From Dermatophagoides farinae (lineage: Eukaryota > Arthropoda > Arachnida > Sarcoptiformes > Pyroglyphidae), in the NCBI RefSeq assembly GCF_024713945.1, contig NW_027461514.1, positions 1-64,000 of the forward strand: a stretch of DNA of 64,000 bases, read 5' to 3'. The notes below the pieces were generated by a model, which saw only the letters and a program-made list of their open reading frames with translations, had not been told where the DNA came from and did not search any database. Shown here piece by piece: positions 1 to 49,330 of this stretch (positions are counted from its first letter, which is position 1; the number at the start of each line of letters is the position of its first letter). The position numbers and the translations under genes were made by a program.

Positions 1-1030
1 ACCCTCCCCCCTAACTAACCTCACTCCCCTGCCCCCTAACCTCACCTAACCTCACCTACCCTAACCTAACCTAACCACCCTAACTAACCCCTAACCAAAC
101 CTACCTACCCTCAACCTAAACCTCTACCTAACCTAACTAACCTAACCTAACCAACCTAACCTAACCCCCACCCTAACCTAACCTACCCCCTAAACCTAAA
201 CCCTAAACCCTCAACCTAAACCTCCCCTAACCTAACCTAACCCTAACCTAACCTCAACCTAACCTCAACCTAACCCCCCTAACCCTAACCCTAACCTAAC
301 CTAACCTAACCTACACCCTAACCTAAACCTAACCACAACCCTAACCTAACCCCTAACCTAACCTAACCTAACCTAACCCCCTAAACCCTAACCTAACCTA
401 CCTAACCTAACCTAACCTAACACCTAACCTAACCTAACCTAAAACCTAACCCTAAACCTAACCTAACCTAACCCCTAACCTAACCTAACCCCTAACCTAA
501 ACCTAACCCCCAACCTAAACCTAACCTAAAACCTAACCCTAACCCCCTAACCTAAACCTAAACCTAACCTAAACCTAACCTAACCCCCCTAACCTAAAAC
601 CTAACCTAACCTAACCTAACCCTCAACCCCCCTAACCTACCTACCTAAACCTAACCTAAACCTAACCCCTAACCTAACCTAACCTAAAAACCCCTAAAAC
701 CTAACCTAACCCTAAAACCTAACACCCTAACCAAACCTAAAACCTAAACCTAACCCCCTAACCTAAACCCTAACCCTAACCTAACCTAAACCCTAAACCT
801 AACCCCCTAAACCCTAAAACCTAACCTAACCCTAACCTAAACCTAACCTAACCTAACCCTAAACCCTAACCTATAACCTAAACCTAAACCCTAACCTAAC
901 CTAAAACCCCTAAACCCTAAACCCCTAACCTAAACCTAACCTAAACCCTAAACCCTAAACCCACCTAAACCCTAACCAACCTAACCCCTAAACCCTAACC
1001 CCTAACCTAAAACCTAACCCTAAACCTAAA
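1..1030. repeat. Telomeric repeat tract at the left chromosome end
   Basis: About 1 kb of C-rich repeats reading toward the chromosome interior, so position 1 lies at or near a natural chromosome end. Units are mixed: CCTAA, CCCTAA, CCTAAA and CCCTAAA alternate, which correspond to TTAGG, TTAGGG, TTTAGG and TTTAGGG on the G strand. Five-base CCTAA units dominate in many stretches, and units with longer A and C runs become more frequent toward the inner edge. The irregularity may be a real degenerate telomerase product, or may come partly from homopolymer-length sequencing errors in a CCCTAAA array. Confidence 0.93.
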
Positions 1031-4317: not shown

Positions 4318-4392
4318 TTGCGCATGTTTTATACAGTTTTCAAAATCGCGCATGTTTTACACAATTTTTCAAAATAACGCACGTTTTTTATA
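4318..4392 (-). promoter_or_regulatory. Three spaced GCGCATGTTTT-type repeats upstream of the surface-protein gene
   Basis: Three related copies start near 4320, 4348 and 4377. The first two share GCGCATGTTTTA followed by YACA; the third is CGCACGTTTTTT. The spacing is 28-29 bp, close to three helical turns. They sit 57-130 bp upstream of the start codon of the minus-strand gene ending at 4263 and are GC-rich islands in an AT-rich spacer. This looks like a multi-copy transcription-factor site, perhaps for an AP2 factor, but binding is inference. Confidence 0.45.
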
Positions 4393-4501
4393 TTATTAAA
4401 TATTTTTTTTTCGCGGATTATATTATAACGCACCAAAATGAACTGCTAAAATAAAAAAGTATAAGTTTTTTAGAAGTTTTATATTGGTATTTCTTGATAA
4501 T

Positions 4502-7500
4502 TTAGTATTGTTTAATAAATTTATAGCTATTTTTGATCCTAGAATTTGTTTCATTGATGCAATGTAATTTATAATTAGAAACAAAATCTAAAAAAGAAAT
4601 AGAATATGGCGTCGTTAAGAAAAGTTTGTTAAGGCTTTTGAAATTTCTGAATAAAATAATCATAAATTGATACATTAAATCAATTGAAAATATATTGAAT
4701 CTCAGGTCAATGGACTTAAGATTATTCACGTTTTTAATCTTTTTTGCATAGGTTTGATTTGAAAGATTTGGTATTTTTAGATTAAATTCAGACAAATCAA
4801 AAGCGCTATCTTCTGCAATATTGATGAAATATTCTAAAAAAGAGTCATTTAAAAAATTGTTCGCTAATGAGAAATGTTGTAGTTCCGTTGTAAATAACAT
4901 TGAATATAATAATAGAGCCCAATGAAAAGAAGTATCAGTTAAATTGAAGTCTAAGTATAAATAAATTACCCCTGTTGTAACAATTATATCATGTAGATTA
5001 ACTACATCAATCTGTGAAGACAAATTAATACAATTCACAGACAGATTTAGTTCTCTTATTTTATAAAATTTAAGTAGATTATGTTTAGCTAATTCATTCA
5101 TATCATCTTTTGATAAACCACAATTTATTATCATAACTGAATTAAGTTCAATAGATGAAGATAGTTTTTTTTCTGATCCTTCTTGAATATTTGTACAATC
5201 AATCAATGATGATAAAAAATTATCAAATACTTCAATATAGAAAATACATGAAAATAAGAGTATCGAATCGTGTATTTCAGAATTATAATATTCTAAAATT
5301 TGCTGTTGTATAGAACATGTAGATGTTTGAGTAGAGCTAAATCCAATTATTGTTTTAGTACCCTGAATTGTATCAAGTAAATTGTTGTATTTTTTTTTAA
5401 TATGATCTATATAATGAATGAAGTTGTTTGGATAGGTAATATGATTAATAATAATAATATCTTTTTTGTCGATATATCGACTAAACTTAGCATTAATATT
5501 TTTCTGTAATAATAAGTCCGGTTGAATTACGTAATAATGATGTTGATTAAATAATTTGACAAGATTGAATTTATTTTCAATAAGCAGTTGTGAATTTTTT
5601 GATAAATATTTATCTAATCCATACTTCATGAGTTTATAAGTATGATTAACGTTCAATGCATTATTGTAATCATTTAAAACAATATATTTTAAATACTTGT
5701 TGGTTATTAGTTTTGAAAATATCTTATAATATTTATATATATTCTGACCTTTAAGCGAATGGAATCTTCTTAATTTAACAAAGGAATAATCAGTACTACA
5801 CCATAACGCAAATTTGTGTTTATGCAACTTTTGATTTATAACGACAAATTTTAAATCGGAATATATATTATGTAATGATTGTAAAAATTTTGCTTGTTTG
5901 CAACTTGTTTGAATATGATTATCAGATATATTTAAGAAAATCAATCGAGACTCACATTTGACATGAGAGTTTCTCATTCTCTCAAACTCTTTTGCAAGTT
6001 CAAATATGTGAGCATTTGATAAATTAGTATTTTCTAAGTTGAGAACATTTAGCGATGTATTCATTGTAATTTCTAAAAAGAATTTAACAAACATAGAAGG
6101 TCGGATCGATTTGAAAGAAACAAAAGCTAGATTTAATGAGCTAACATAATGTTTTTTAATTATTTTGACAATAGCCTGCAGTTGGCTCAAATTAGACTCG
6201 TTTTGACTATTGCCATAACAATATTTGAAAAGATCTGAGGCTGATAAGTTTAAGTAATTAATATTAGTATTTAAAATATTACTATTAGCTATAAGCTCTA
6301 GTTTAAGATAGCCACTACAAGCCATTAAAGTCAAATTACAAAGCTTTTGCATAGCTAATGTTTCTATAACTTTGATAAGCAAATTTTTTGAAAAGTTTAT
6401 ATCAAAAAAAGTGATTGATTTTTTAGAGAGCTGACGAGTTAAAAACAATTCAATCAGAACTGATTGCAAAACAGCCGTATTTATTCGACTATTAGATGTT
6501 TGAATTTCTATAGGAACTTGACTTTTGACTGTTTGGACAGGTTGGTATACTAATTTCTGAGAGAGTTTTATATTTAAGTCTGTTATAATTATTATATCTA
6601 AAATATCCAGAGCTTTGCACTTATACAATATTTTCCGTAACTCTGTATAATCTCGAGTTGATAAATTATTTTTTAACATTATCAATTGTATATTCCTAAT
6701 TCTATTAGTTGGTTTTTGAGATTCAGTTGAATAACTATTAACATAAAGTTCTATTTTGTTTACGAACCCAAATACAAAATTTGAACCTAAATTGTTTTGC
6801 TGGAGATCAATTACTTGAACATACTTATTATTTAAAATAAAGTGTGCTAACAAATCACCATTGGATATGCTATCAGTTATTCCGATATTACTGAGTATAA
6901 ATTTTTTCGTGTGTAACCTTTCTAAAGAAATTATATTGTTAAAGTCAAACAACTTATTATTTGAAATATCCATTAATTCATTGCTATTACTGACTTTAAT
7001 AAAATATTCTAAAAAGATAATAGTGTTATTATTAGCAAAATCAAGATATCTAAAGCTTAAATTTTGAGTTGTTTGTAATAAAATATTGAACTCATCTCTA
7101 TGAGCAATTATATACTCTACAATCAAATCGCTTATTTCGATTATTTCTTCATTTAAATTATTTTGAACGAACTTATAAAAACTTGACGCAAATAAATTAG
7201 ATGTTTCGTACTTTTTTAATATATTTTTCAAATGAATTTTTTGCAAAGTATATTTTAAAAAACAGTTTGCTAACTCATGAAAAAGATTAATTTTCGTAGT
7301 AAAACAAATCATTAGTGATACACCACCATTTAAATTATATGTATTTCTAAACAATATCAAGTTGCAAGAATTCGATACACACACGTTTTGTAATCCCACA
7401 GGAACTATATTGTAAAATTCAATTGGAATGCTTGATTCATTGATCAAATAAAAAAAATCATCAGTACTTTTATTAAAAACTATATCTAATCCAGAAATAA

Positions 7501-18189: not shown

Positions 18190-19013
18190 CTAGTTTATCA
18201 CCAGCTCTTCGTTGGTTTTTTCCGTCTGTTGCGGGAAATAGTTATATGTATAATTCCAATCGTATGACCAATTATGTTGTTGATCATTATTTTGATAGAC
18301 TGTGTAAAAATTATTTTGTGACTCATTGTTTGTTGTATTATTAGTATACCTGGTTTCAAGCTCGCAGTCATACTGTTTCATCGGTAGAGATTCGTTTAAA
18401 TACAAATTATAGTTTTGGTTGTTAAGCTGAGTGTAATACATCATAGGATCTTGATAATTTTGTGTTTGTAAAAAATTATTGTTACATAGTTGGTCGCCAA
18501 CGTAGTTGTCTTGAACCTGGTTCCAATCCCAGGTGTGTATGCTCGACATGGATTGCATGTTGTAGTATGGATACAAATGATAATTTAAATAATATTGTTG
18601 TTGTTTATTGTTGGTGTTGTTTGCGCCTCGCTTTGAGCGTTTGTTTGTCGTATCTTTCGGTAAAACTGCCCCGCGCGAGGACAACAGATTGTTATTTTTG
18701 CGATTATTACCATTTCTCCGTTTAAAAACACCGCCTTTTCGGTCTATTTCACTTTGAATTTGTACTTTGAATTTATAAGCTTCGATTCGAGCAGCTGCCT
18801 CGCTCGGAAAAAATTTAGGGTTAAAATACTTTGTGTGTCTTTGTCCATTTTCGTCAGTCCATTGTGCAGCCCATATTCCTAAAGTAAATGTTAAGAATTA
18901 CACAAACCCCTGTGCATAACGTGTTTAGCCAAGAATCCATTTAGCTTTCACTGGTACTTACCTCTACAATTCTTATAAACTCCTTTTACACCTGTAAAAT
19001 CTAGTGAAGACAT
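18190..19013 (-). CDS. ApiAP2-type transcription factor, single AP2 domain, two exons
   Basis: Predicted sequence-specific DNA-binding protein of the apicomplexan AP2 family. Exon 1 (18962-19013) reads MSSLDFTGVKGVYKNCRG and is joined to exon 2 (18190-18878) across an 83-bp intron (GTAAGT...TTTAG, 18879-18961). The AP2 domain is split by this intron: GVKGVYKN in exon 1, then IWAAQWTDENGQ, KYFNPKFFPSEAAARIEAY and FKVQ in exon 2, so it occupies roughly residues 7-66. The remaining 180 residues are Asn/Gln/Tyr-rich and low in complexity, with a basic patch (KRRNGNNRKNN) just after the domain. Total length is 246 residues, short for an ApiAP2. Starting at the downstream ATG at 18684 would lose the domain. 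This protein is the strongest single indicator of an apicomplexan host. Confidence 0.88.
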
Positions 19014-33144: not shown

Positions 33145-34809
33145 ATGGCCAATTGGACTAATAAGATAAAATCTAAGCTTACGTCGATCGCCACAAATAT
33201 ACCAAACTTAATTAACAATTTAGCGAGCGATTCCAAAAAAGATGAAGAATCCACTTTAGCGGAGGCAATCAGCCTGTTAAACTCAAATTCTAATTCTGAC
33301 AAAAAAAAGGCTTTAAAACGCCTGATCCAATGCATTTTGGAAAACAAAGACGTTTCCTCAGCGTTCACGAGTGTTCTAAACTGCAGCATGACAAAATCGA
33401 TTGAAATAAAGCAGTTGATAAACATGTATTTCATCTTTATTTCGCAAAAGTGCGCAGACAAGTTGATTCTTTCAGTCAACCGATTGTTGGTGGACTGCAA
33501 AAACGTTAATCCGATAATCCGCGGACAAGCCATCCGTAGTTTGGGAAACTTGCTAACAGAAAATTCGCTGGAATGCACGTTGAACACGGTGATGGAGTTG
33601 ATCAAAGATAACGATGCGTACGTCCGCAATTGTGCAATAATGTGTTTGCCAAAAATATATCGTTTTGATCCGTCGATAATTGAACTAGACACTACTCGTG
33701 CCACTTTAGAAGAACTACTATACAAAGAGTACAATCAAATAGTTATAGCGGCTACACTAACTACGCTTGACTTTATTTATGGCGACAATTTTGTCATTGA
33801 CCACAAACTAATGCTTCACTTGATTCTATTTATGTCTACATGCACTGAGTACGGCCAAGCTTACATCCACAACATTGTCATGAAACGGTATCCGTTCTCG
33901 TCCCAGAGTGAGTGCAACGAGCTTGTTAACAAACTGAAGCACAGATTGACTCATTCTAGCTTTGTCGTCGTGTCAACTTTAACAGATTTTTTATTTAAGC
34001 TCCTTGATAATCTAAAAAATCAAGAAGAATTTGTCAAGACGATCATAACGGAAAACATTCTTCCGGCGAATCTTTCGTTCTTAAACACTCTTAACCCTGA
34101 ACAATTATACATTGTGCTGAACAAGCTTGTTACTTACTACGAAAAATACCCAAAATACACGCTTTCGGTTTTTCTCGATCAGATTCATAGTTTTTTTGTG
34201 AGAGACAGCGACCTTTTCTACATCAAGCGATACAAATTATTTTTTTTGAAAGAGTTTTTTAAGGAGACCATTATTACTTCTAATTGTCCGGAGACTCAAA
34301 GAGCACTGGTTTCTGAGTTCAATTTATATCTGACAACTTCTGACATGCTTTTTTTTGAGCTCGTTTGCGTCGCTCTTAGCCAATTAATACTCGAATTACA
34401 CGCATACAAACGCGAAAATTTTATCCTCCCCATGATTGAAACAGTATTGAGAAACGAAAACAACCTAGTGGCGAAAACCGAACGAGTTCTCAACAATCTT
34501 GCTGAACTATACTTTAGCAAAATCGCCATACCAAATATTGACAATATATTATGCGATAATATAAATCCGACTCAGATGAAGTTGTCTAGTAACGTCTTAT
34601 TATTACTTTCTGAAAGAAAATTGTTTGACTTATTATATGAATATTTATCGAGCCTCAACGTTGTGGAAAAAAGATATCTCAATTCTTTAATGTTCATTTA
34701 TAAAGAGACTAAACACGAAAATTTGCTTGCATTGTTATGTGATAAGCTCGAGCTCGACGATGATAGTTCCCAGAATTTGATTTTGAACACGCTCGCAGCT
34801 GTTGATTAA
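33145..34809 (+). CDS. Beta-adaptin trunk-like subunit of an AP clathrin-adaptor complex
   Basis: Large beta-type subunit of an adaptor protein complex in vesicle traffic. The N terminus fits the adaptin_N superhelix: DKKKALKRLIQCILENKDVSSAF (about residues 50-72), IEIKQLINMYFIFISQ, VNRLLVDCKNVNPIIRGQAIRSLGNL, and VRNCAIMCLPKIYR. It is 554 residues long and stops within the trunk, so there is no hinge or ear domain with clathrin boxes. Whether it belongs to AP-1/2, AP-3 or AP-4 cannot be told by eye; a beta subunit without an ear would have reduced clathrin binding. Convergent with the giant gene, 37 bp apart. Confidence 0.78.
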   Translation: MANWTNKIKSKLTSIATNIPNLINNLASDSKKDEESTLAEAISLLNSNSNSDKKKALKRLIQCILENKDVSSAFTSVLNCSMTKSIEIKQLINMYFIFISQKCADKLILSVNRLLVDCKNVNPIIRGQAIRSLGNLLTENSLECTLNTVMELIKDNDAYVRNCAIMCLPKIYRFDPSIIELDTTRATLEELLYKEYNQIVIAATLTTLDFIYGDNFVIDHKLMLHLILFMSTCTEYGQAYIHNIVMKRYPFSSQSECNELVNKLKHRLTHSSFVVVSTLTDFLFKLLDNLKNQEEFVKTIITENILPANLSFLNTLNPEQLYIVLNKLVTYYEKYPKYTLSVFLDQIHSFFVRDSDLFYIKRYKLFFLKEFFKETIITSNCPETQRALVSEFNLYLTTSDMLFFELVCVALSQLILELHAYKRENFILPMIETVLRNENNLVAKTERVLNNLAELYFSKIAIPNIDNILCDNINPTQMKLSSNVLLLLSERKLFDLLYEYLSSLNVVEKRYLNSLMFIYKETKHENLLALLCDKLELDDDSSQNLILNTLAAVD

Positions 34810-34846: not shown

Positions 34847-37800
34847 TTACCTTTTATCTATATTACATTGCTCGCGCAAAACTTTATCTATTGGAAACAA
34901 GCTTAGCAAGTCAACTTGGTCTTTTTTTGAAAAATTTTTAAACAGGTAACATTTGCTGTATATGTACTTTTCTGTTTCACTGAGCATAACGGTGAGAATG
35001 AAAATTGTTGTAGAACACAGTAAATTAAACTTGACAAAGCTTGATGGCGTGAACGTTATTTTAAAACCAAATATTGCCATGTAGTTTAGCACATTAAACA
35101 GACTCAGCAAAAGTATGACGATCGTATGACTCCCAAGAAGAAAGTTTGCGGATTTTTTTTTTTTCACACAGCTATGTGTAAACTTAGTCAGTAACCGTAA
35201 AGTAGCAAATGTTAAAACAGCACTGGTGATGGAGACTCCTAGCAAAAAAGGAAAATAGTAAAACGATAGCATTGAGTTCAACACCCAGTTCAAATCAATG
35301 CTGTTCTGAAAGAATATCATACTCATTGTAATTACCAAAGTCCCCCAAACATTTGACACGAGATAAAACGAGAATATTGATAGCAACGATACGTTAAAAT
35401 AATAATTAATTGGAAAACGTGCTACAAGCGCTTGGTTTGTAATGGAAGTTGATAAAAACCAAATTTTCCCAATGTCGTCTTTGTTCAGCGTTCTTAACAA
35501 ATATATTAAAATATAGTAAGAATTGTTTTTGAAGCAGTTATTAAATTGACTGATTTGTTGATTTATGGTATCTTCATTAAAGTTGAAATCATTGTCTAGC
35601 TCGGGTTTATCATTCGCAAAACAATCCGTCTTTGCAAAGACTTTTTTTTTCATCAGATCATTACAAACAGAGCTTGCGTGTGGATTATCAGTAGAAGATA
35701 AATATTTATTCTGCAATGAGCCTATGCTTGATCCACTGGCTAAAACATCGACAACGTTATTTTTGACAACGATTAGTGCGTAATTTGTTATAAATCTTTG
35801 CCAGTTTTCTTTTTTATTTTCGCGCGTAGGTAATAAAATAACAACTCGGTCCTCCGTGAAAAACTGGTCGAACGAATATTGTTGTTTCGTGAACGTGAGC
35901 TCTTTTGTGGATAATATGAGAACTATGTGAGGAGTAAACAACAAAGTTTTTCGAGCCTGATCTTGGTTTTTAGCAACTGTAGATCTGTAATTAAATATGT
36001 AATCGCTTAAACAAATATCTTCAGTAGTAATAGGTTCTTTTGGAACTGAGTCTTCAATGCAAAACTCATTCGAAATTCGTAGAAATGAATCATTTTTCTC
36101 GTATACATCAAACGGTTCTAAATTGAAATTTACTGAAAAGCAATCTTTGTTTAACTCATACTCAGTTTTTGAGTTTTTTTGATTAATGAGCCAGTATTTA
36201 TTTAGTTGAATCTTTAGTAACACAGTAGTTAGTAAATTGTCTGTGCCCAAATACAAAACTTCGTTATTCGTTAAATAGACGCAGAAATAAGGTATCAACG
36301 CTAATTTAACAGAACTAAGGTACATATCATCGTCTGCATGATAGTTGCGTTTAATTACATTGAATTCTATTGCTGAAACACGAATTATTGACTTAGTATC
36401 AAGAGATAGACAGTATTGCAGAAAAGCATTTTTCTTGTTTAAATGTTCAGAAAAGTATATTAATAAATAAATATCGTTTGTTTGAGAATTGCAAACAACA
36501 GAGATTTCCCCATTAAAACCGTTAATGAAACAACTAATTGAATGACAAACTTTTGGAACAAGCGATAAAGTTTTATTTTTCAAAGTCTGAATTGGATAGT
36601 TCATCACACAGTTTGTTGGATACAAAGACGCGAAACTTTCGCTGTTTACGCCACTATGGGAACTACAAAGCAAATTTTTGTTGTTGGATTTGCAAGCTAA
36701 ACGTTTAGCAATCATTTTCTGAAGCCTAGAAAGCCATTTATAAACAGTCTTAGTAGAACTTAAGTCGATAAAGCTTCTGCACACAGACGGGTTAAAACAA
36801 GATATGGTCGACGGAATGTAAAAAAACAAATTTTGCTTCAACTCAATCATACCAGTCGAAGCAAGTGACAACTTTGCCTCAAGCAGATTAAAAAAATAAT
36901 TTTTTCGTCTTTGGTTCTTTAAATAAACTAATATTATACTTGAATATAAAGACAGGGACAAATAGCAAGGAAGTGAAATGTTGTTGCAATACAGTGTTCC
37001 GGGTAAAAATCCGATTTTCAAGTAGTTAAAATCGGAAAATCGCTCGTTCATAAGCAAATACTTGTGTATTAAAATCCTCCGTACAAATGCAAAATGAGAG
37101 TTAATGACGAATCTCAGCCCATGATCAATTTTTACCTGAACTTTAACGTTTTTATTAAAGGAAGCTGAATTCACGAGGCAGAACAAACCTTGATCCTCAT
37201 CCCCATTAATTTTTTTAATGCTTGCCAGCTGGTTGTGATCATTTTCTAGCCGTCTAGAAAAGAAATAATTAAATAACTTGAAGATCAGTTTTTTTTCGTG
37301 TTGATGTTTAGAAGGAAGTAATAAAGAATAAAGTTCCAAATAATCGATGAGTTTTATATTCAATAGATATATGTTTGATTTTGAAATAACCAAATTTTCA
37401 ATTTTATGCTTTACTACAAGAGCTGACAAGTCTAATTTATAATTAGTAACGTTTCTAGTTAATGCCAAATGTATATTGTAAGAATTGATGATTGCGTTCG
37501 TATTTAAGTTTTTTTCATCGGTGTTTTTAGATAAGTAGAACAAAGACTTAATAAATGATTGGCCGGTTTCAGTTTTTTGCATTAACTTTCCCAATAAGTC
37601 GGTAACCTTGCTAATTCGAGATTTTTTATCTGATGAATCGTGATAGCTAGGTGGGGTATCATACATAAAACCTGAGAACAACTTTTTAAAACTTGGAGTT
37701 ATCGTTTTATTTTCACGGTAAAGTGACATGACTAAGTAGTACATGAAACATAGCAACGAAACAGTATAGAGCGAAATTATAAAAACCTGATTTTTTTTGA

Positions 37801-40800
37801 TTAGATTTTCGTTTAACGACTGGTACCACTTAGCAAAATCTACTGCGACATATAAGTTCAGAGTCTCTGATTTGTCAACGACATTAGATTCACAAATCAA
37901 TTTATCTTCAAAAATTTCTATATGGCAAGACACAGGAACATACTCATCAAAACTCTTCCTAAGCACAACTAAATTGTTTACTAAAGTATAATTCTTCGAA
38001 AGTAATCGTCTTAAAATGCGACTAAGTTCAGGTGATACGCTTTTTTCAAAATAAATTAAACTGTGCAATTCAGGTTTAATAACGGTAAAAACAACAGGCA
38101 GCAAATAATTTCTATCTATGTGTGATTCAGCAACTTCTGTATTTGTAGAACTAAGTACTTTGAAATCGTCTTCTAATTTAGAAATGATATTTTCAAATGT
38201 TTCGTTATTAGCTATAATGGCCTCGATAAAGAATATATCTGTTAACCGACTAACAACTGTGTATTCCATAGTCTCTTTTGCGTTGAAAATTTGCTTTATA
38301 TTTTCAATCGATTCATTGATATAGGTTTCAATTTTTTTGTTAAGTAATTTATGTTCTAACCGTATTATCAAGTTATCAGCGTAACTCAAACGTTTTGATT
38401 TTTTGAAAACGTTCAAGTAAATTAAAGACAACCAAGAAAATAATTCGTTGTACGAAATATTAGACTCAGAAGATATTTTCTTTGAATCAAGATCTAATAA
38501 TTCCATCTCGGTATAATTAAAGAGCACGTTTTTAAGGACAGAAATGCTGTCAAACATTTCTTTATGATTAAAGTTATCAAGTCTGGAAAGTTTGGATTCT
38601 AAGTATCTAATAAAGAGACTGTCGTTGATTTTATTGTAATCAACGTTTAGTAAATTTGAAGAATTATCAGAGTGCTTGAAGTACCAAAGTTTTTCAAAAT
38701 CAGATCCTAACTTTGTTTTTATTGATTCTTGATTCATACTACTGTATTGGCATTTGTAATTAACGCAAATTTCAGTTTGATTAACTAAGGTATTATGAAA
38801 GTAATAATCGATAAAACTAGTTGAACCATAGTTAGTTTCTTTAATTTGCTTGTCCAAAATATTGAAAACATAATCGTCCGTGTAAGCCAATGACACCATT
38901 GGATTTGTAATTATAAAAGAATCAGTAGCTTGCTTTTCTACAACTGATTTATTCGGATCAGTTGCCACTATACTCAAAAAGTCATCATAATAAACTCTAT
39001 TCAAATTATTAGTATTATTAACAAAATCATTGTCGTGTAAATTTATCTCATCTGCTAAGCACTTAACGAACCATAACAACTTGGTATCTCTCTCGCTGTT
39101 GAAATTGCCTTGCAAATCAGAAATCAATAAATTCTTGAGAGTAACAGTAATATCGTTTTGGGGCAAAAGTAGAACTTCCGAAATAACTTCATTTTCACAT
39201 TGCTGATCTAATATTTCAACTTCTTCTACCGTTTCCCATTCTGTGTCAAACACATTATTCCGCTTTAAAGCTTGCTTTGTAATTACATTGGCTACTTTAT
39301 CAAGTTCGTATATACTCATGTTATAAGTGTCTTCAGATGTGGCAATAATTTTTTTTACATTGGTAAACACAAACGGAAATTTTAAATTTCCAAAACTTTT
39401 CTCCGGAAATATGATTGAATTATGAAGTTTAGTATTTTCATCTAAGCTTTCAGTCCATATTATCGATTTGTAAAATAAGTTTCCTTTAAGGTTTTCGACT
39501 TCGGTGGTTCTTCTTTTCAATGAACAACAACTGTGTAAAATCCCATCTAAAAACAGACAAGCTGAATTTATGTTTAGAGGCGGCAATAATACATAATGAA
39601 AATCATTACATTCAGAATAATAACTTTGAATAATAGATTTTACTGGTTTCAAAGAAGAAACAAGTGCTTTCTTTTCTTTTAAAAACGTTAATTTATCGAA
39701 CTCGTAATGAATTATTGAATAATGTTTTTTCATATTATCCAAGATATCAATTTCTAAAAGTAATTTGTGATATAAACGATTTTCAAAAGTAAGATTTTTT
39801 TCAAATTCATCTGAAGATGTTTGAAGTTTATTTTCGACGTGTATTTTTAAATTTATTCCATCAGCTAAAACGATTTGATTAAATGTAGGTATATATTCCA
39901 AAGGTACAGCGACTTTAATTATAATGATATTATCGATTAAAGTACAAACTGAATATTTGAGTAATTTTGGAGATGTTATAATGGACTGACAATTGAATCG
40001 TAATGTTTTAAATTTTACGGACGAGAATAAAACCAAAATATTGTCAAACCATTTCGCTGAAACGATTTTTTTCACTAATAGATCGCTAGCAAAATCAGAA
40101 AAATCGACATATATGATTTTATTTTCAAACGATGATAATTCAGCTGGATGTGTAGTGTTCGTCAAGCTTTGTAAATCATCATAAGAAGCTATTTCCTTAG
40201 AAATTAATCTTTCAACTAAAGAGTGAGAATTATCTAAGTATTTTCCAAAAATGTTTAGTAAAAGAATTTTGAAATTAGTTTTCACAAAAATAGTTTCATC
40301 GGAAGTCCTTGCTACATTGAGTATGTCTTTTATAACTTCGTGACTATTTTCACTTGGTAGCCATAAAAATGGCTTTAATTTTCGATTTTCTAATGGTTTC
40401 AAAAAAAGTCTTGTTTTCACTCTGGCATTGTCCTTGTAAACTGCACAATCTATTTTATTTTTATTGTTTACTGTATTATCATCAGACGAAACTGATGTGG
40501 TATTTGTATCGTTTTGTGTATTTTTTTTTGTGAAAAAAGAATTGTTTGACTTAAAAGACTCTGCACATATTTTACAACACGAAAGTTTTGTGTAATTATA
40601 AAACTGACGTAATGAACCACTTGATAAATTTTGCAATAAATGAACAGTCTCTGGTTCATAACCAAAGCCATTAATCGATGTATCTAAACCTTGAAAGTAA
40701 AATGAATTTTTATAACATTGATACTTGCTTAAGCAATCTTCAAATATCGATTTTAAAGCTTCTTTTTTATTTATTTTGATATTGCAACTCTCCAGATATT

Positions 40801-43800
40801 TTATAAAACTTCGAGAGAATAATAAATGGATGTCGACATTTTCATAACTATAAATAAATCCAAGTCCATATGTATAATTTAACCTCAAACAAATCAGTTT
40901 CTTTGCGTTTTCACACGAAGGATGTAGAATAAATTGTGAAATTAATAAAACATAGTTCTTAAAAGAACTGTTAAAAGAAAACATGTTTGATTTCTGCATT
41001 GAGTAATTGTTAATTGAAGATATCAAATTCGTATTTTCTTTTAGCTTAATAAAAACGTCAAAAGCTTGATGATCCATGCTATCTTCGGCAGTATCAATTA
41101 CTTTACTTTGTTTTTTGTTGCTCTCTGGCTTATTATCTTTTAGTGTCAAAAAATTGGACAAATGAACAATGCAGTAGTAAGTTTTTAAATTATTTTTTAA
41201 ATACTCCAACAAATCATCTGCTCCTTCAACGATAAAAACCAACTCGGTAAATACATCCATGTTAAAATTTCTTAAAGAAAAAACTCGAGATGGATTAAAT
41301 CTATAATTATTCAAAGACGCATATATTGGTTCTGCTATGGGTTTCAAATTATGGTCCAATTGTTGCACGAAAATCGGATATTTTAAATCCACTAACAAAA
41401 ACGTAACATTATTAGAAATGACTCGTTCTACTTTGCAAACTATTTTATTATAATTTTCGTGAACTGAGTCTCGTAGAAGTTCGTACTTGTTTCGATCTTT
41501 ACTCTGATCGATTGCTTTTTTATCATTGTAAACAACAGTAGAACGCTTTTGTTTATGCTTTAGCGCCAAATATCTTGTGTAATCTGGGTTATTAAAGTTC
41601 TTAAGCTTACCAAGATCAACGTAATTGGAGTAATCTGACAGTTTAACAGCTATAAAGTAATCTTCATTTTCATCGCAAGAAGATAGATCTAGATTGATAA
41701 GTTGATTTTCTTCAAGATATTTATAGAACATACAGCGATTAGTCTGTTGATAAATAATTGTAGGAACTGCTTTTTTTACATCTTTTTTTTGCATTAAATC
41801 TAGTTTACTCTTAAACTTGTCGCTAAATTCAAACAGAAAATGTCCTGTTTCTTGAGTTTTAAAATTTTTAAATATCTGGAAGTTTACTTTTGTTTTATCA
41901 ATGACAATCAATCTTTGTTTAATTAGACTATCAATAGAGGAAATTTCCCACCAAGCTAGCAATGGAGAACTAATTAAAATTTCTGCAGATGATTTTTTAA
42001 CCCCTTTGTCAATGCAAAGTTTTTCGAAATGATGGATTAGACCGTTTATCAACCGATATTCAAAACGGAAACATTTTTCACTTTCGTCATTGTCTCGAGA
42101 AAATTGGATAACAAATTTAAACTCGTTTATTCGATCATCACGATCTGAAATATAAATTAAGACGTCGTCAATTTTAGTTGAATCTACAGATTCCGAAGTT
42201 GAATTGTTTTTCACATTCTGAATAATTTTTTGATAGCCTGAAACTTCGTCAAACAAGGTGATTGTTTTATAATCCATAAATAATTCAAGACTAATGAAAA
42301 CTTTACCAAGCCGATCAATCAAAGGACAATTACTTATAGAACTAATAGTAAATAATGAATCAGGTAAATTTTCAAGTAGTTTATAATAAATTGCCATATT
42401 GTTTGTGCAATCAGGACTAATGTTAATGTTCAGTAACCAGTAGTTTTCATTTTGTATTATTGTATTATCATTAGCAAATTCGACTATTAAACGTTGTTCC
42501 TTGAGTGAATTATTATTTTTTGAAATCAAAAGATTGAAATTGTTTCCTCGTAATCGACTCTTGTCAATAAATAAATTTAAACGGGAATGTACATCACTAA
42601 ATTTAATAATTTCAAATTTATCTATAGATTCTAGTAAGTTAGAATCTTGATCTTCATTAACAATAGGACAAAATCTAAACACAATTGGATCATCAACTAA
42701 TAACATTTTTTCAAAATCAAACGTCACGCCCAAATCTTTTACCAAAACACATTTAGAAAGTTCCATTGTTATTGAGGTGTCTTTACAAAACGTGACAGTT
42801 TTATCATCAGTTGAATTTACTATTTCGTAGAATCCAGTTTGAGTACAATTTAGTGTTATAATATCATCATTTCTGGTTATAACGAGTTTATCTTTTATAT
42901 TCAAAACGATTTTTTCCGAAGATTCTAAAATTGTTTCTGAAGAATCATACACACGGTTGTAATGAGTATAATAGTCTAAAAACTTAACCTCGTCAGTTTT
43001 CATACACTGCAAGATATTATCACTAAACATCGTATTCATATTATCTTGAAATTCAACAGACTCTAACTTGAATTGATCTAATAATTTGTAACTTGCATCA
43101 TAAAACAAACAATTATAACTTTTTTTTAAGGTTTTGTCAGGCCATTTAGTATGATAAATTACATAATTTTTGTTAAAGTCTTGACAATTTTCATCTTTAT
43201 TAATTTGATAGAAAGCATCGTCTGCTGCACTGCCTAAATCGCAATGTAAAAAAAGATTTTTACAATTAACCGTAATCTTTTCGGGCTTGATTAATAATGT
43301 TAGCTGGTTATTAGATTCAGAAAAAATATAATCATACCTGAAGACCTGGGCTTCTGATAAATTTTTTAAGTACATATTACTTTTATATCTTGCCAACAAG
43401 TTAAGGATGTTTTGGTTAAAGTTGGTATCATAAAGCTTTCGATTAATTTTTTTTCCGTATGGATTTTTATCAATCTCTAATATATCCATCAAACCTGCAC
43501 AAATTTCAGTATCAACTGAAACAGAAAAATCAGTAGTATTAGAATCATACTCAAGTAAATAAGAAACCGAATCAATTTTTTGCAATGAATGACAGCTATC
43601 ACATAAAACATTATGAGATTCAAAATCGAACTTTATTAATGCAGTGTTATTATTTTGTATTATTCTGTTTTCTAACATTTTAAACCTGCATGGTAATGCA
43701 ATATAAGGCAATAATAAAGTGTTAGTTACAACGTCTTCGGGCTTAATTAAAAAAGAACTACAGCTCATATTTTTGTAAAAATCCGCTGAATTTACTACTG

Positions 43801-46800
43801 AACTTAAACAAATTTCAAATATGGCATCTATTACCATAAATTGGGGAGTATCGAATTTTATCGTAATCTTTTCGCTAGTTTTTAAATCTGATGAATAAAC
43901 AATGGAAGAAAATAATAAAATTTTTCTTCTACCATTTAAAACATTAAAGTTTAAAGTCAGAATAATGTCGTCCATTAGTAAATCTTGATTTGGAGTTATA
44001 TCAAATGATATTTCAACTTCAAAAGATAATATATTATAGTAGCCTATGTGGATTACTAATGAATGTAACACTATAACAGTATCATTTTCATTAACATTTC
44101 GATTTATACAGGTTTGTTCATCTTTTTTTACTAACTGATCTGCGTCATGAGATAAAGGTTTATCGTAGTTTCTACTCAATAAGTACCAAAAGAAATCATC
44201 AAAAATGGGACAGTTTTGAAGTCTTTTCCACATAGGATTATCAGAAAAAACCGTTTCTAATGTTAAGTCGTTTGACAAATAATAATCTGTTCTTGAAGGA
44301 AAAAATGTTTTTATTTTTAATGCTTCTTCAATGAATTTATGACTGATGATTTCATAAGACAGTTTATTCCATAAAGGCGTTGATTTTAGATAAGACGAAA
44401 ACGACGTTTTAAAGAAATGATATTGAATTAGTTCTTTATAATTTTTATTCTTTAGAATATCTAACAACTTATTTTTCGTATCATTGTACAATAAAGTTGT
44501 CATTGGAGCTCTGTTTTTTAAAAAAACTTCGCAGCTAAGTTTATCAAACAATGATATCATAAGTAACGGTTTTATAGTTAAGTCAATAGCCACAGGAGTT
44601 AATTCGGTGTTTTTCAATTTATTTGTAGAAACTTCTTTTATATAAACCTCTTCTAGATTTTGCCATTGAGATACGAATTCTGCATCGGTTACCCATTCAT
44701 CTTTTGATGAGAGAATTTTTAACACATCATTTTTTCCAGATAAGGGTAACTTTGACGAAATGAAGTAGTTTTCGTACTTGTTATTTTTATAGTCTGTATA
44801 GTAAGTTGCCTTAACAATAATTTTAACAGTGTCTCGATTATATGTAGCGGGAATTTTCGTTGAAAATGATCTAGAATAAATTGTTGATTTATTTTTAGGT
44901 TGTAAACTCGGAATTAACTTATAATATTCGTTGATTGAAAACAAGTATTTTATAAACTTAAAATCATCGCTTACAAGAAAAACTTCATAGAAAGTTTTTT
45001 CATATTGCTGATCATACTCTAAAAGATAAAATATACCAGAAATCCATTCAATTCTGTTGTCCGTCAAAAACATCGACGAAGTGAATTTAAATATAGCATC
45101 ATGGCCCAAATTAACCTTAGCGTTTTTCGATATAGCTGAAAAACAAATTTCACTGTTGTAAAAGTATTGGCTTCCAAACTTTAATATAAATAAGCCCTGT
45201 TTTCTTATTTCATCAGGCAAACTCAAAATTGACGACTTGTACAAATCACATTTCGTCTGCTCAGATGAAACATATGATAAATACATTGTACATTCATATT
45301 TAATACAAGCTTCATAACATTCACTTTTATCATTAACTATGTTAGAATAAACTAAAAACAAATTTTGAATGGTAATAGCCGACTTCCTATGAGTAAAACA
45401 AACTTCATGAATTATTGAAACATCGGTAATGTAAGACAATTCAAAATATGCTTTATTGAAAAAAATTGGGCTAGGCTCTAACGAAAATACCTCTTCTTTT
45501 ATTCCCAAGTCCTTCCTGTCAATTAACTCATGTTTGTTTGTTAAGATAATTTCTTTTTGCACCGTTGTTCCGTAATAAGTCTCTTTCACGAACTTTTGAA
45601 TTTCTGCACTATTAGCTATATAACATGAACCGAACTGTCTGTTCCACACATTTCTATAACCACTTTCACATGCGTTAATATATCCTAAATCCGGACTAAT
45701 ATCGAAAAGTAAAGATTTTGGTTTTCTAACCAAATTCAATGTTGAATCTAAAAAATATGAGGAGTTAACCAATACATTTCCTTTGATGGGTAGTTCAACG
45801 GTGCAAAATAAAATACTTTTTCGAATCAAAAGTAGCTCCATGTCATTAGAAAGAATTATGTTGCCAGAAAGCAGCAATTTTGCTACCTCTGTAATTTTTT
45901 CGAATTCTAATTTATCACAAACTATATTTATCCTTCCAGCACTATTTTTATTGACTTTACAACTGTTATCTAACAACTCCGCATTTGAATAGCCATATTT
46001 ATCATAAAATTTAATTAAACATTTATCAGTATTACGAAGCCGTAAACAGATAGCATCGACTAGTTCTTCATGAACAGAAAAAACAAAGTTAAACTCATCA
46101 ATAGATGAATTTTTTAACAATAAATAGTGAGGCGGGCAGAAATTTTCAAAGTCAAATTCATATTTATAAAAAGCAAATGCCTCATTTGCCTTTAACAAAT
46201 CTTCAAGTTCTGATTTTTCATTTAAATAATAAAGATCAGAACGTCGCATATTCGTTTTTGTATTGACTTCATTAAGTAATTCACTGAATACTTGAACAGC
46301 TTTTTTATTATCTATTTCAATTGATTTATTGTGTAAAACCGGAGACAACCGATATCTTAGAATTACATAAGTTTGAAGATTATTATCGTACAAAAAACAA
46401 TCCAATCCCATAGTTATGTTTGGAAAGCCAGTTCCAACAAATTTAAAAGTATTGATGAGACTTTTTTTTATTTCATGTTTGAACCAAACAAACTCATCAT
46501 TCATAAACCAGGAACTCAGGCAAAAGTCTGCTTTCGCCTTAAAATCATTGATAATAGATAGATCAATTATAAATGCATCTAAGCTATATGCAGACACTTC
46601 AAAAGAATAAATCAAAGTACTGTGGGATTCAACATCGACTATGAGTGAATTTAACACTGGCTGTCTTTCGTTAAAAATAACATCAACAATTTCAACTAAA
46701 TAAACTTCTTTCTCTAGTTCTGTATAAACGTTTAGCCGACATAAAGTATCAAGATCAGAAATGGCTTCAGGTAATTCTTCTATATTAAGTTCGTATTTAT

Positions 46801-49330
46801 TATTCGAGTTACGGCTCAATGCACAACCTGAACTGATTGTTGTGAGTTTGTCGAATGTTGAGTATAGTTCTATCGAATATTTGTATTTTTTTTCATCATA
46901 AGAAATAAAGTTATTGATTAGGTTAACATTTTTCGTCAATAAAGGACTTTTCCTTAAAGTCTTATTTGTTGAATCAGATTCTGTTATTAAAGGAACTACA
47001 AGGTCTATATCCTTAACATTAACAATTACAGCTATTCTGTTCATTTCTTCTTGAGCTATTGAACTGTATTCATTAGATCCTGTCTGCAGATCAATAAAAA
47101 TCTTTGCTTTCGATTTGTTTAAATTGCGATATATTGTTTCGAATCTGATTTTTTCGTTTTCTAGTTTGAGCTCCTGCGAAATTTTAATTTTGTATAAATT
47201 TGAAAGTAGATATTGCTTACTTGGATACACAAAAGTTGTTACAAATGACAATTTCTTTAACAATTCATTTTCTGGTGACACTTTTATTCGTAAAAAATTC
47301 ATATCAAACGATTTTAACCATGTTAAAAATAGATGATATGTTATTTGGACAGTAGTAAATTTTTTTTGTTGTAATGTAATATAAGCAAACTTAACAAAAA
47401 ATGTCTGATTACTTTCTAATAGAGGAATCATATTGGTTTTAAAAAAAGATGAGGAATCCACAACTTTATTATTTATCATCTTTTGCTCAACAACTATAGA
47501 AGTCTTTCTATGACTATAGTAACTGAGATCGTTGTTCACCTGAACAACTAAGTTATTTGTGTCAGAAAATTCTGGTAATTCGTCAATACCACAATTATCA
47601 AAAGAGCTGATTGTACCATCGCTATAAACTTCACTTAATACTTTAGAATACAATATACAAACTAAATCGAACAACCAAGCCGTACACTGAGAGTGGTTGC
47701 TACATAAATTTTTGCATTTCAGAATATCGTTAACAAAAAGTCTAGCTATTTCGAAACCAAGAAAGTGATAATTTTCTAAAATACAACTATTTATTTCATG
47801 TACATGGCGATCTATGATTTTCACAAAGCTCATTTCAGATAATACCAAAGGAATCGAATTCCAACAATAAGCACCATCCTCATCAATCCCAGTATTACAA
47901 ACAGCATTCTTGCTCTTAATTAAAAACAATTCGTTTTTATTATTATCAAAGATAATTGAATTAGATGGTCGAACAATTGAAATAGAACCACCTAAAATTT
48001 TTTCTATGGTAGATTGAATCATCCCTCTTTTATCAATTAATACTAATATATGATTTTTCGGCAAAAATTTTTGATCACACCTTATACTATCTGGATGTGC
48101 ATCGATATCATAACAGTAGTTTGTTTTTAACTCACTACCAGCTTCAGTATCATTTAAGGTAATGGTCTCATTATGTATTTCCTGATTATCTGAGTATAAC
48201 ACTACTGATACTGATAAAGTCTTACCGATAAAATTAAACGGACAAGTTATGTAACCTATCTGTTTATCATAGTCACACTCTATAATATATTCAGTTTGAA
48301 TTTCTAGTGTATTATATATTTTTTTATGATCATTAATTTTAAGTTTAATTGAAAAAGGCCGGAGCATAAACCCACTGAAATCAACATCAGGTTTAAACAT
48401 AATAAAACCATTAGCATAATTCTTTAAACTATTTATATCTATAAATAACGTCTTCAATATTTTAAAAGGTCGGATAACATTTTGATCAAACGAAAATTCA
48501 CACATAACCTTATAAAGGTTATCCTCTGAAATTCCAGTTTTCCTTCTCATAAGTAATAAATATTGAGGCCAGTTGTCTTTGTTAATTCTAGGGATTCGAA
48601 TTATTTCATTCTTATTAAATTTATATAAATATAACGTCGATTGTTCGACAACGACAATATTTGTAGCAAATTTAAAAGGCTTTGTTAACACTTTAAAAGA
48701 ATCTTCACTGTAGTTAAGTTGGAAATTACACTTTGGATAAAGTTTTTTCTTTGCTAATGTCAACTTAGATAATAAATTAAAAATATTAGATGCGGCTACT
48801 GCTCTGTTGATAAGTTTCTGCATCGAATCTGTTTTGTATACGTTAACAGAGTCGATAAACTTTTTTAAATCTGTGCATTCTAATTTTTTAAACGTGGTGT
48901 CATCAGAGATTTGTTTAATAAATAAACAAACGTCACTATTTTCAATTATATTGTAATTATAAAAAGTGTCAGATGCATCGTAGTCTTTGCTGTTAAATCT
49001 TTTAATTAATGTAAGTACAGTGTTTAATAAGCTTATGCGATCAAAAACAAAATATTTTTCTTCTTTTTGTATTATCGGAATTATAATTTCAAACAAACCT
49101 CGTTCATACCAAAGAAATTTATGCTCAGTTCGGTCTTTGCCTTGTGTAGATTTAGTATTTAATGATAAAAAATAGTACGAAGGCCAATCAATATAAGGTA
49201 AGTAAATTAAGCTTTTATTCGTAGATAAAAATTTATCATGTTTTACGATTTCTTGAACATCGCTAGAACGATCAAAGATCTCTTTACCTAATGAATAACA
49301 ATAAATTATAAAATATTTAAATAATTTCAT
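34847..49330 (-). CDS. Giant 4827-aa polycystin-1-like membrane protein with PAN/apple-like modules
   Basis: One uninterrupted 14.5-kb frame. A hydrophobic N terminus (residues 1-15) looks like a signal peptide. Three cysteine clusters resemble PAN/apple modules: near residue 533 (CKNLCSNHSQCTAW), near 1305-1366 (ECYEACIKYECTMYLSY ... CDLY) and near 2913 (CCKICAE ... CAVYKD). The first transmembrane helix lies at about 3847-3867, with no evident GPS cleavage motif before it. After a cytoplasmic region of about 770 residues comes a cluster of four or five helices (about 4645-4785). The lead-in IWFLSTSITNQALVARFP, the helices with FYLVSNVWG, and the last pair, including AIFGFKITFTPSS, follow the TM2-TM5 region of polycystin-1 proteins (family: H-L-W-x-S-x-x-x-R-P-x-x-x-F-T-R, then F-F-T-x-L-Y-G-L-x-F-G). 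The channel-like TM6-11 part is missing. A PLAT domain is not recognisable. The polycystin link is moderate; the gene itself is certain. Confidence 0.6.
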   Translation of the reverse strand: MKLFKYFIIYCYSLGKEIFDRSSDVQEIVKHDKFLSTNKSLIYLPYIDWPSYYFLSLNTKSTQGKDRTEHKFLWYERGLFEIIIPIIQKEEKYFVFDRISLLNTVLTLIKRFNSKDYDASDTFYNYNIIENSDVCLFIKQISDDTTFKKLECTDLKKFIDSVNVYKTDSMQKLINRAVAASNIFNLLSKLTLAKKKLYPKCNFQLNYSEDSFKVLTKPFKFATNIVVVEQSTLYLYKFNKNEIIRIPRINKDNWPQYLLLMRRKTGISEDNLYKVMCEFSFDQNVIRPFKILKTLFIDINSLKNYANGFIMFKPDVDFSGFMLRPFSIKLKINDHKKIYNTLEIQTEYIIECDYDKQIGYITCPFNFIGKTLSVSVVLYSDNQEIHNETITLNDTEAGSELKTNYCYDIDAHPDSIRCDQKFLPKNHILVLIDKRGMIQSTIEKILGGSISIVRPSNSIIFDNNKNELFLIKSKNAVCNTGIDEDGAYCWNSIPLVLSEMSFVKIIDRHVHEINSCILENYHFLGFEIARLFVNDILKCKNLCSNHSQCTAWLFDLVCILYSKVLSEVYSDGTISSFDNCGIDELPEFSDTNNLVVQVNNDLSYYSHRKTSIVVEQKMINNKVVDSSSFFKTNMIPLLESNQTFFVKFAYITLQQKKFTTVQITYHLFLTWLKSFDMNFLRIKVSPENELLKKLSFVTTFVYPSKQYLLSNLYKIKISQELKLENEKIRFETIYRNLNKSKAKIFIDLQTGSNEYSSIAQEEMNRIAVIVNVKDIDLVVPLITESDSTNKTLRKSPLLTKNVNLINNFISYDEKKYKYSIELYSTFDKLTTISSGCALSRNSNNKYELNIEELPEAISDLDTLCRLNVYTELEKEVYLVEIVDVIFNERQPVLNSLIVDVESHSTLIYSFEVSAYSLDAFIIDLSIINDFKAKADFCLSSWFMNDEFVWFKHEIKKSLINTFKFVGTGFPNITMGLDCFLYDNNLQTYVILRYRLSPVLHNKSIEIDNKKAVQVFSELLNEVNTKTNMRRSDLYYLNEKSELEDLLKANEAFAFYKYEFDFENFCPPHYLLLKNSSIDEFNFVFSVHEELVDAICLRLRNTDKCLIKFYDKYGYSNAELLDNSCKVNKNSAGRINIVCDKLEFEKITEVAKLLLSGNIILSNDMELLLIRKSILFCTVELPIKGNVLVNSSYFLDSTLNLVRKPKSLLFDISPDLGYINACESGYRNVWNRQFGSCYIANSAEIQKFVKETYYGTTVQKEIILTNKHELIDRKDLGIKEEVFSLEPSPIFFNKAYFELSYITDVSIIHEVCFTHRKSAITIQNLFLVYSNIVNDKSECYEACIKYECTMYLSYVSSEQTKCDLYKSSILSLPDEIRKQGLFILKFGSQYFYNSEICFSAISKNAKVNLGHDAIFKFTSSMFLTDNRIEWISGIFYLLEYDQQYEKTFYEVFLVSDDFKFIKYLFSINEYYKLIPSLQPKNKSTIYSRSFSTKIPATYNRDTVKIIVKATYYTDYKNNKYENYFISSKLPLSGKNDVLKILSSKDEWVTDAEFVSQWQNLEEVYIKEVSTNKLKNTELTPVAIDLTIKPLLMISLFDKLSCEVFLKNRAPMTTLLYNDTKNKLLDILKNKNYKELIQYHFFKTSFSSYLKSTPLWNKLSYEIISHKFIEEALKIKTFFPSRTDYYLSNDLTLETVFSDNPMWKRLQNCPIFDDFFWYLLSRNYDKPLSHDADQLVKKDEQTCINRNVNENDTVIVLHSLVIHIGYYNILSFEVEISFDITPNQDLLMDDIILTLNFNVLNGRRKILLFSSIVYSSDLKTSEKITIKFDTPQFMVIDAIFEICLSSVVNSADFYKNMSCSSFLIKPEDVVTNTLLLPYIALPCRFKMLENRIIQNNNTALIKFDFESHNVLCDSCHSLQKIDSVSYLLEYDSNTTDFSVSVDTEICAGLMDILEIDKNPYGKKINRKLYDTNFNQNILNLLARYKSNMYLKNLSEAQVFRYDYIFSESNNQLTLLIKPEKITVNCKNLFLHCDLGSAADDAFYQINKDENCQDFNKNYVIYHTKWPDKTLKKSYNCLFYDASYKLLDQFKLESVEFQDNMNTMFSDNILQCMKTDEVKFLDYYTHYNRVYDSSETILESSEKIVLNIKDKLVITRNDDIITLNCTQTGFYEIVNSTDDKTVTFCKDTSITMELSKCVLVKDLGVTFDFEKMLLVDDPIVFRFCPIVNEDQDSNLLESIDKFEIIKFSDVHSRLNLFIDKSRLRGNNFNLLISKNNNSLKEQRLIVEFANDNTIIQNENYWLLNINISPDCTNNMAIYYKLLENLPDSLFTISSISNCPLIDRLGKVFISLELFMDYKTITLFDEVSGYQKIIQNVKNNSTSESVDSTKIDDVLIYISDRDDRINEFKFVIQFSRDNDESEKCFRFEYRLINGLIHHFEKLCIDKGVKKSSAEILISSPLLAWWEISSIDSLIKQRLIVIDKTKVNFQIFKNFKTQETGHFLFEFSDKFKSKLDLMQKKDVKKAVPTIIYQQTNRCMFYKYLEENQLINLDLSSCDENEDYFIAVKLSDYSNYVDLGKLKNFNNPDYTRYLALKHKQKRSTVVYNDKKAIDQSKDRNKYELLRDSVHENYNKIVCKVERVISNNVTFLLVDLKYPIFVQQLDHNLKPIAEPIYASLNNYRFNPSRVFSLRNFNMDVFTELVFIVEGADDLLEYLKNNLKTYYCIVHLSNFLTLKDNKPESNKKQSKVIDTAEDSMDHQAFDVFIKLKENTNLISSINNYSMQKSNMFSFNSSFKNYVLLISQFILHPSCENAKKLICLRLNYTYGLGFIYSYENVDIHLLFSRSFIKYLESCNIKINKKEALKSIFEDCLSKYQCYKNSFYFQGLDTSINGFGYEPETVHLLQNLSSGSLRQFYNYTKLSCCKICAESFKSNNSFFTKKNTQNDTNTTSVSSDDNTVNNKNKIDCAVYKDNARVKTRLFLKPLENRKLKPFLWLPSENSHEVIKDILNVARTSDETIFVKTNFKILLLNIFGKYLDNSHSLVERLISKEIASYDDLQSLTNTTHPAELSSFENKIIYVDFSDFASDLLVKKIVSAKWFDNILVLFSSVKFKTLRFNCQSIITSPKLLKYSVCTLIDNIIIIKVAVPLEYIPTFNQIVLADGINLKIHVENKLQTSSDEFEKNLTFENRLYHKLLLEIDILDNMKKHYSIIHYEFDKLTFLKEKKALVSSLKPVKSIIQSYYSECNDFHYVLLPPLNINSACLFLDGILHSCCSLKRRTTEVENLKGNLFYKSIIWTESLDENTKLHNSIIFPEKSFGNLKFPFVFTNVKKIIATSEDTYNMSIYELDKVANVITKQALKRNNVFDTEWETVEEVEILDQQCENEVISEVLLLPQNDITVTLKNLLISDLQGNFNSERDTKLLWFVKCLADEINLHDNDFVNNTNNLNRVYYDDFLSIVATDPNKSVVEKQATDSFIITNPMVSLAYTDDYVFNILDKQIKETNYGSTSFIDYYFHNTLVNQTEICVNYKCQYSSMNQESIKTKLGSDFEKLWYFKHSDNSSNLLNVDYNKINDSLFIRYLESKLSRLDNFNHKEMFDSISVLKNVLFNYTEMELLDLDSKKISSESNISYNELFSWLSLIYLNVFKKSKRLSYADNLIIRLEHKLLNKKIETYINESIENIKQIFNAKETMEYTVVSRLTDIFFIEAIIANNETFENIISKLEDDFKVLSSTNTEVAESHIDRNYLLPVVFTVIKPELHSLIYFEKSVSPELSRILRRLLSKNYTLVNNLVVLRKSFDEYVPVSCHIEIFEDKLICESNVVDKSETLNLYVAVDFAKWYQSLNENLIKKNQVFIISLYTVSLLCFMYYLVMSLYRENKTITPSFKKLFSGFMYDTPPSYHDSSDKKSRISKVTDLLGKLMQKTETGQSFIKSLFYLSKNTDEKNLNTNAIINSYNIHLALTRNVTNYKLDLSALVVKHKIENLVISKSNIYLLNIKLIDYLELYSLLLPSKHQHEKKLIFKLFNYFFSRRLENDHNQLASIKKINGDEDQGLFCLVNSASFNKNVKVQVKIDHGLRFVINSHFAFVRRILIHKYLLMNERFSDFNYLKIGFLPGTLYCNNISLPCYLSLSLYSSIILVYLKNQRRKNYFFNLLEAKLSLASTGMIELKQNLFFYIPSTISCFNPSVCRSFIDLSSTKTVYKWLSRLQKMIAKRLACKSNNKNLLCSSHSGVNSESFASLYPTNCVMNYPIQTLKNKTLSLVPKVCHSISCFINGFNGEISVVCNSQTNDIYLLIYFSEHLNKKNAFLQYCLSLDTKSIIRVSAIEFNVIKRNYHADDDMYLSSVKLALIPYFCVYLTNNEVLYLGTDNLLTTVLLKIQLNKYWLINQKNSKTEYELNKDCFSVNFNLEPFDVYEKNDSFLRISNEFCIEDSVPKEPITTEDICLSDYIFNYRSTVAKNQDQARKTLLFTPHIVLILSTKELTFTKQQYSFDQFFTEDRVVILLPTRENKKENWQRFITNYALIVVKNNVVDVLASGSSIGSLQNKYLSSTDNPHASSVCNDLMKKKVFAKTDCFANDKPELDNDFNFNEDTINQQISQFNNCFKNNSYYILIYLLRTLNKDDIGKIWFLSTSITNQALVARFPINYYFNVSLLSIFSFYLVSNVWGTLVITMSMIFFQNSIDLNWVLNSMLSFYYFPFLLGVSITSAVLTFATLRLLTKFTHSCVKKKKSANFLLGSHTIVILLLSLFNVLNYMAIFGFKITFTPSSFVKFNLLCSTTIFILTVMLSETEKYIYSKCYLFKNFSKKDQVDLLSLFPIDKVLREQCNIDKR

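Follow-up and report, generated by a model that had tools for sequence, protein, structure and literature searches.

A giant, apparently five-pass membrane protein with an apple-type module on probable apicomplexan scaffolds of the Dermatophagoides farinae assembly

The locus and its reading frames

The stretch of DNA analysed here (the window, 64,000 nucleotides) opens with a telomere-like array and carries, among its genes, a protein kinase and a giant protein frame:

1..1030, no strand: telomere-like array of irregular make-up, mainly CCTAA plus CCTAAA, CCCTAA and CCCTAAA
30124..31773, plus strand: neighbouring calcium-dependent protein kinase (CDPK type), pointing to an alveolate
34847..49330, minus strand: giant protein frame, 4827 amino acids, by ORF analysis

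The giant frame (34847-49330) is open on the minus strand as a single exon from ATG to stop, with 4827 codons (4831 from stop to stop). The original prediction had described a protein of 4827 residues in one exon that fills 23% of the window, and both statements hold, the computed share being 22.6%. Codon usage gave 0.86 for the true frame versus 0.75-0.87 for shifted or antisense frames and hence does not separate them. A convergent open frame at 33145-34809 stands 37 bases from the end of the giant frame, so that downstream exons could hardly accommodate a missing channel half. No leader exon is visible in the 695 bases upstream, which contain another small minus-strand frame. The giant frame had also been set apart from its neighbours as unspliced among spliced genes, a contrast that does not emerge clearly: the DNA ligase neighbour has all three of its domains in one frame, the kinase neighbour its complete domain, and the eRF1-type neighbour its first and third domains, while the adaptin-type neighbour covers 393 of 524 profile positions. 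Further, other giant single frames are present on contigs C13 and C19 of the same assembly. On C13 an open frame of 3332 codons spans the whole of the first 10 kb (C13:1-10000, plus strand) and is without a Pfam match at E 0.001. In the first 10 kb of C19 (C19:1-10000, minus strand) at least 3332 codons stay open in one frame, which encodes ketosynthase, acyltransferase, dehydratase, enoyl- and ketoreductase-type and carrier domains and reads as a giant type I polyketide synthase (PKS) or fatty acid synthase.

Scaffolds of apparent apicomplexan origin in a mite assembly

The assembly comprises 62,435,336 bases in 22 contigs and corresponds to the Dermatophagoides farinae genome published at 62.43 Mb (PMC11074847). 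That genome is described as 10 pseudochromosomes and 21 scaffolds, with a size of 59.35 Mb estimated from k-mers, and its authors filtered out microbes by BLAST against microbial RefSeq (PMC11074847). The ten mite chromosomes, contigs C1-C10, total 58.83 Mb, close to the 58.77 Mb reported in 10 contigs for an independent D. farinae assembly (PMC8487952). The eleven scaffolds C11-C21, the first of which begins with our window (C11:1-64000), total 3.59 Mb and account for the excess of the assembly over 58.8 Mb.

Several observations bear on the source of these scaffolds: 1) In dinucleotide composition C11-C21 lie at distances of 27-101 from the window and C1-C10 at 128-309, as measured on one 10-kb sample per contig (two for C7), with masked bases in two of the samples; the outlier among the eleven scaffolds is C19, at 101, and the highest mite value, that of C4, is inflated by telomere repeats. 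2) All four AP2 matches in the assembly fall on C11, C14, C16 and C19, three of them above the cut-off and that of the window below it, and the single alveolin match is on C14; each of the two profiles also matched in one bacterial control genome. 3) Calmodulin-domain kinases, which we take to be apicomplexan entries, head the best 60 of 1597 PDB matches of the CDPK-type kinase, several of them aligning through both the kinase and the EF-hand parts. AMA-1 gave no match in the assembly and none in the control genomes either. Thus, from the dinucleotide signature together with the AP2, alveolin and CDPK matches and the giant type I PKS on C19, C11-C21 are most likely apicomplexan DNA left in the mite assembly, and the apicomplexan origin proposed from the window is supported by its kinase, by AP2 and alveolin and by the existence of a separate scaffold set. 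The window's own AP2 match (18787-18882, minus strand) is weak, at 26.9 bits with a cut-off of 33.3, and might belong to an ApiAP2 regulator.

The array at the window start (CCTAA 67, CCTAAA 21, CCCTAA 18, CCCTAAA 8 and CCCCTAA 8 copies) does not bear on this question. Short CCCTAAA repeats begin C14 and C16, and C4 and C6 begin with the arthropod TTAGG type; with CCTAA commonest in the array of the window and also seen at mite contig ends, the array is no evidence for a parasite, and it could be a parasite telomere, an assembly error or a misjoined mite end.

That the parasite is gregarine-like is a guess. The mite Caparinia is a close relative. In Caparinia, which is another parasitic mite, an 18S sequence has been identified as gregarine (PMC6321676). 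The smallest apicomplexan genomes reported so far are of about 9 Mb (PMC10210345), and against that size a scaffold set of 3.59 Mb is probably partial. Among the open-licence papers listed by our searches, none was seen to report an apicomplexan in D. farinae or such contamination.

A supported apple-type module and further candidates in the predicted ectodomain

The giant protein begins with a predicted ectodomain of 3846 residues, about 98% of which is without a match to anything. The original prediction had placed three PAN/apple clusters in it, and two sites are of interest:

47591..47785, minus strand: PAN/apple module 1, residues 516-580, six cysteines; sequence matches to Pfam PAN_1 and plasma kallikrein
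45143..45400, minus strand: residues 1311-1396, possible second apple module (module 2) with six cysteines spaced as in apple domains; cysteine layout

Searched as a whole against Pfam, the giant protein gave PAN_1 at residues 518-565 with E 0.094. Residues 505-590 searched by themselves gave PAN_1 at E 7e-4 and 19.8 bits, below the cut-off of 21.4, the gain in E coming partly from the testing of one chosen segment. Against PDB sequences the same segment matched plasma kallikrein with a whole-chain E of 5.6e-4, a value summed over four apple repeats, the best single one of which reached E 3 and none of which is significant by itself; plasma kallikrein and factor XI account for nine of the ten PDB sequences that match module 1 at E up to 10. 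Two shuffles with the cysteines held in place found no PDB sequence at E up to 10, so that the match is carried by residues and not by cysteine spacing alone. A single-sequence AlphaFold model of residues 505-590 is all-helical and differs from the mixed fold of the apple domain; with pLDDT 56.6 and pTM 0.46, and made without an alignment, it is poor evidence either way.

The six-cysteine apple pattern, which was composed after both sites had been seen, occurs twice in the protein, whereas 2000 shuffles contain it 0.0015 times on average and never twice. The second of these sites, module 2 (1311-1396), gave no Pfam PAN match, and none of its three weak PDB matches is an apple protein. In the third cysteine cluster (2918-2962) the central cysteine is missing and the Pfam search of its tile gave no match. 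Of the three clusters, the first (cysteines 516-580) is supported by profile and PDB matches, the second shows the six-cysteine layout and the third is incomplete.

A PAN_1 scan of the whole assembly (E up to 1) gave 29 matches, 27 of them on the mite contigs C2, C8 and C10; the other two are that of the window itself (19.1 bits, E 0.063) and one on C17 above the cut-off. The latter is a PAN_1 domain of 28.2 bits in a parasite open frame at C17:147600-148800. Its first three cysteine gaps, of 22, 3 and 5 residues, are the same as those of module 1, and it has a seventh cysteine. As a phmmer query against the giant protein the C17 domain found only residues 536-562 and 1336-1366, with negative scores that lie below those of the best shuffles. 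A profile built from the C17 domain and module 1 recovers module 1 by construction, plus two weak stretches that include 1332-1368, and an alignment of module 1 with module 2 put the cysteines out of register. The Pfam and PDB matches of module 1, with the empty shuffle controls, support the reading that the giant protein carries at least one apple-type module, about 500 residues from its N-terminus.

Predicted membrane segments and topology

49241..49330, minus strand: residues 1-30, a weak candidate for a signal peptide, with its hydrophobic core at about residues 3-15
37724..37792, minus strand: transmembrane segment 1 (TM1), residues 3847-3869, hydropathy maximum 2.14
35396..37723, minus strand: region of 776 residues (3870-4645) that separates membrane segment 1 from segment 2 and is read as cytosolic; no Pfam match
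34976..35395, minus strand: four packed transmembrane segments, residues 4646-4785, by hydropathy and flanking charge

The hydropathy profile supports the proposal of a giant multi-pass membrane protein. The four packed segments are spaced by 10, 22 and 8 residues, and a weak hydrophobic stretch at 4118-4138, inside the 776-residue region, could be a further membrane pass. Of the loops in this bundle, the one that joins the second segment to the third is rich in lysine, with flank charges of +6 and +4, and the one that joins the first to the second has a charge of -1. This pattern suggests that the C-terminus is cytosolic and, given five passes, that the N-terminus lies outside the cell. The charges beside TM1 (+2 and +3) favour neither orientation. 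At the N-terminus the hydrophobic core is weak, with a best 9-residue mean hydropathy of 1.6, and a single-sequence model of residues 3701-4827 has a pLDDT of 33, too low for a meaningful comparison of folds.

These features bear on a reading of the giant protein as intracellular or endomembrane, with the apple-like cysteines arising by chance or forming a metal-binding cluster. The weak signal peptide and the all-helical model of module 1 fit it, as do a PAN_1 match below the curated cut-off and a cysteine content in the "cytosolic" region (2.45%) that is not lower than in the ectodomain (2.13%). However, both Pfam and the PDB set give apple-domain matches for module 1, in the PDB set through residues between the cysteines, and we consider an intracellular protein unlikely.

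The polycystin-1 question

In polycystin-1 the segments TM1-TM5 start from an N-terminus outside the cell, make five passes and end with the C-terminus inside. The topology proposed here for the giant protein is the same, and the segment ahead of TM1, judged by eye, has helices followed by a cysteine-containing, strand-rich stretch in a loosely GAIN-like layout. From such features one could construct a truncated, diverged polycystin-1 with a GAIN-like region, TM1, a PLAT domain decayed beyond recognition, TM2-TM5 and loss of the channel half; the original prediction had named a truncated polycystin-1 architecture without the channel half. Several results speak against this: 1) No Pfam match for PLAT, GPS, REJ, polycystin or the channel turned up in the whole protein or in ten tiles covering it; the tiles were searched at E up to 10, though weak matches above about E 0.1 were mostly dropped by the tool. 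Residues 3701-4827 had no match among PDB sequences at E up to 10. 2) Compared with three frames of the mite's own polycystin-1, the giant protein gave no phmmer match, and BLAST returned chance-level scraps of E 0.6 or worse. 3) The membrane spacing differs: in the mite protein a stretch of about 190 residues that includes PLAT leads from TM1 to TM2 (in one frame TM1 847-865, PLAT about 894-1005, TM2 1057-1075 and TM3 1101-1119), whereas in the giant protein 776 residues without a PLAT match follow TM1 and the remaining four segments are packed together, so that the order and spacing of TM1-TM5 claimed for it are not reproduced. We therefore regard a truncated polycystin-1 as highly improbable. 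As far as sequence can tell, polycystin-1 identity is not supported by domain content, similarity or membrane spacing, and the lack of a match that the original prediction had named as its refutation is what the sequence searches show. No testable feature makes the giant protein a polycystin-1 and no channel part was seen, a distant structural kinship being unproven.

The mite polycystin-1 with its PLAT, polycystin domain and channel lies at C7:4824000-4833999. Among the matches listed for the assembly, all 12 PKD_channel, both Polycystin_dom and the single PLAT match are on mite chromosomes, and those listed include no PKD_channel or Polycystin_dom match on C11-C21.

Other candidates and relatives

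Cysteine repeat modular proteins (CRMPs) are multi-pass proteins that may sense host contact (PMC9815656, PMC9670195). A very diverged member of this kind, which serves the rhoptry secretion complex as a multi-pass sensor, would share the general plan of the giant protein, namely an apicomplexan source, a giant cysteine-containing ectodomain and a C-terminal multi-pass region, and each of two gregarines is reported to have one CRMP, with very low local conservation (PMC9815656). However, the CRMPs of Toxoplasma gondii have nine membrane segments and the conserved CRMP core has two EGF-like domains (PMC9815656), against the five or six segments found here; EGF or ephrin-receptor-like Pfam matches are absent from the giant protein and its tiles, and all eight ephrin-receptor-like matches in the assembly are on mite contigs. 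On membrane count and on the lack of an EGF-like or ephrin-receptor-like match we set this candidate aside as very unlikely.

Three other candidates were rejected. CLIP of the CLAMP complex is described as single-pass (PMC10690463). A DUF4368 match at residues 131-170 (E 0.045) lies below its cut-off and is taken as chance, as is a match of residues at about 4734-4801 to a trace amine receptor, a seven-pass GPCR (E 0.19), which was the single PDB match when residues 4560-4827 were the sole query.

Internal repeats were sought by comparing 200-residue tiles with each other, and nothing better than in three shuffled copies of the protein came up. Within the assembly, residues 1-2977 and 3701-4827, the two parts covered by a search for paralogues (2978-3700 lay outside it), match only themselves. 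The C-terminal 507 residues found no relatives in prokaryote and virus contig collections, which says little.

Proposed function and comparison with known systems

We favour, with a probability of roughly 0.6, a giant five-pass membrane protein with at least one apple-type module, belonging to an apicomplexan associated with D. farinae and acting, as its topology and apple module suggest, in adhesion or contact sensing. It would most likely be an orphan surface protein of an uncharacterised apicomplexan. In such a protein the apple module or modules might bind a glycoprotein of the host or of a partner, and the four-segment bundle might either anchor the giant chain or pass on a contact signal. 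Apple domains are named among the possible adhesion modules of Cryptosporidium (PMC9250747). A bolder proposal, which we hold to be doubtful, would make the protein the founding member of a family, giant apple receptors with five passes that sense contact with mite host cells in the role of TRAP-type adhesins or CRMPs, and would make C11-C21 the first genome sequence from an apicomplexan of house dust mites.

The source of the DNA outweighs the identity of the giant protein in importance. A polycystin-1 in Apicomplexa would be remarkable, and the clear polycystin-1 in the assembly is that of the mite. In a published genome of an allergen source, 3.59 Mb of apparent apicomplexan DNA would inflate the size and the gene list of the mite genome. 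Mite cultures serve for allergen extracts, and an unsuspected parasite in them would therefore be of practical interest. At the same time C11-C21 would offer large pieces of a parasite of which we found no description among the open-licence papers listed.

The kind of protein is known and its exact plan is unmatched: to our knowledge, no described apicomplexan apple protein has one or two modules in a five-pass chain with an ectodomain of 3846 residues. Three known systems come closest: 1) With PAN/apple proteins (PF00024 and PF14295; plasma kallikrein, factor XI and apicomplexan apple-domain adhesins) it shares the six cysteines and the sequence matches of module 1; unlike them, it has one, perhaps two, modules in an ectodomain of that length otherwise free of matches, followed by five passes. 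2) With polycystin-1 it shares a giant ectodomain ahead of TM1 and, as proposed, an N-terminus outside the cell, and it differs in the absence of PLAT, GPS, REJ or channel matches and of detectable sequence similarity, and in its membrane spacing. 3) Like CRMPA and CRMPB of Apicomplexa, which are proposed contact sensors, it is giant, multi-pass and cysteine-containing; the CRMPs combine nine membrane segments with EGF-like domains and with Kringle or lectin-type domains, whereas the giant protein combines five or six segments with an apple module.
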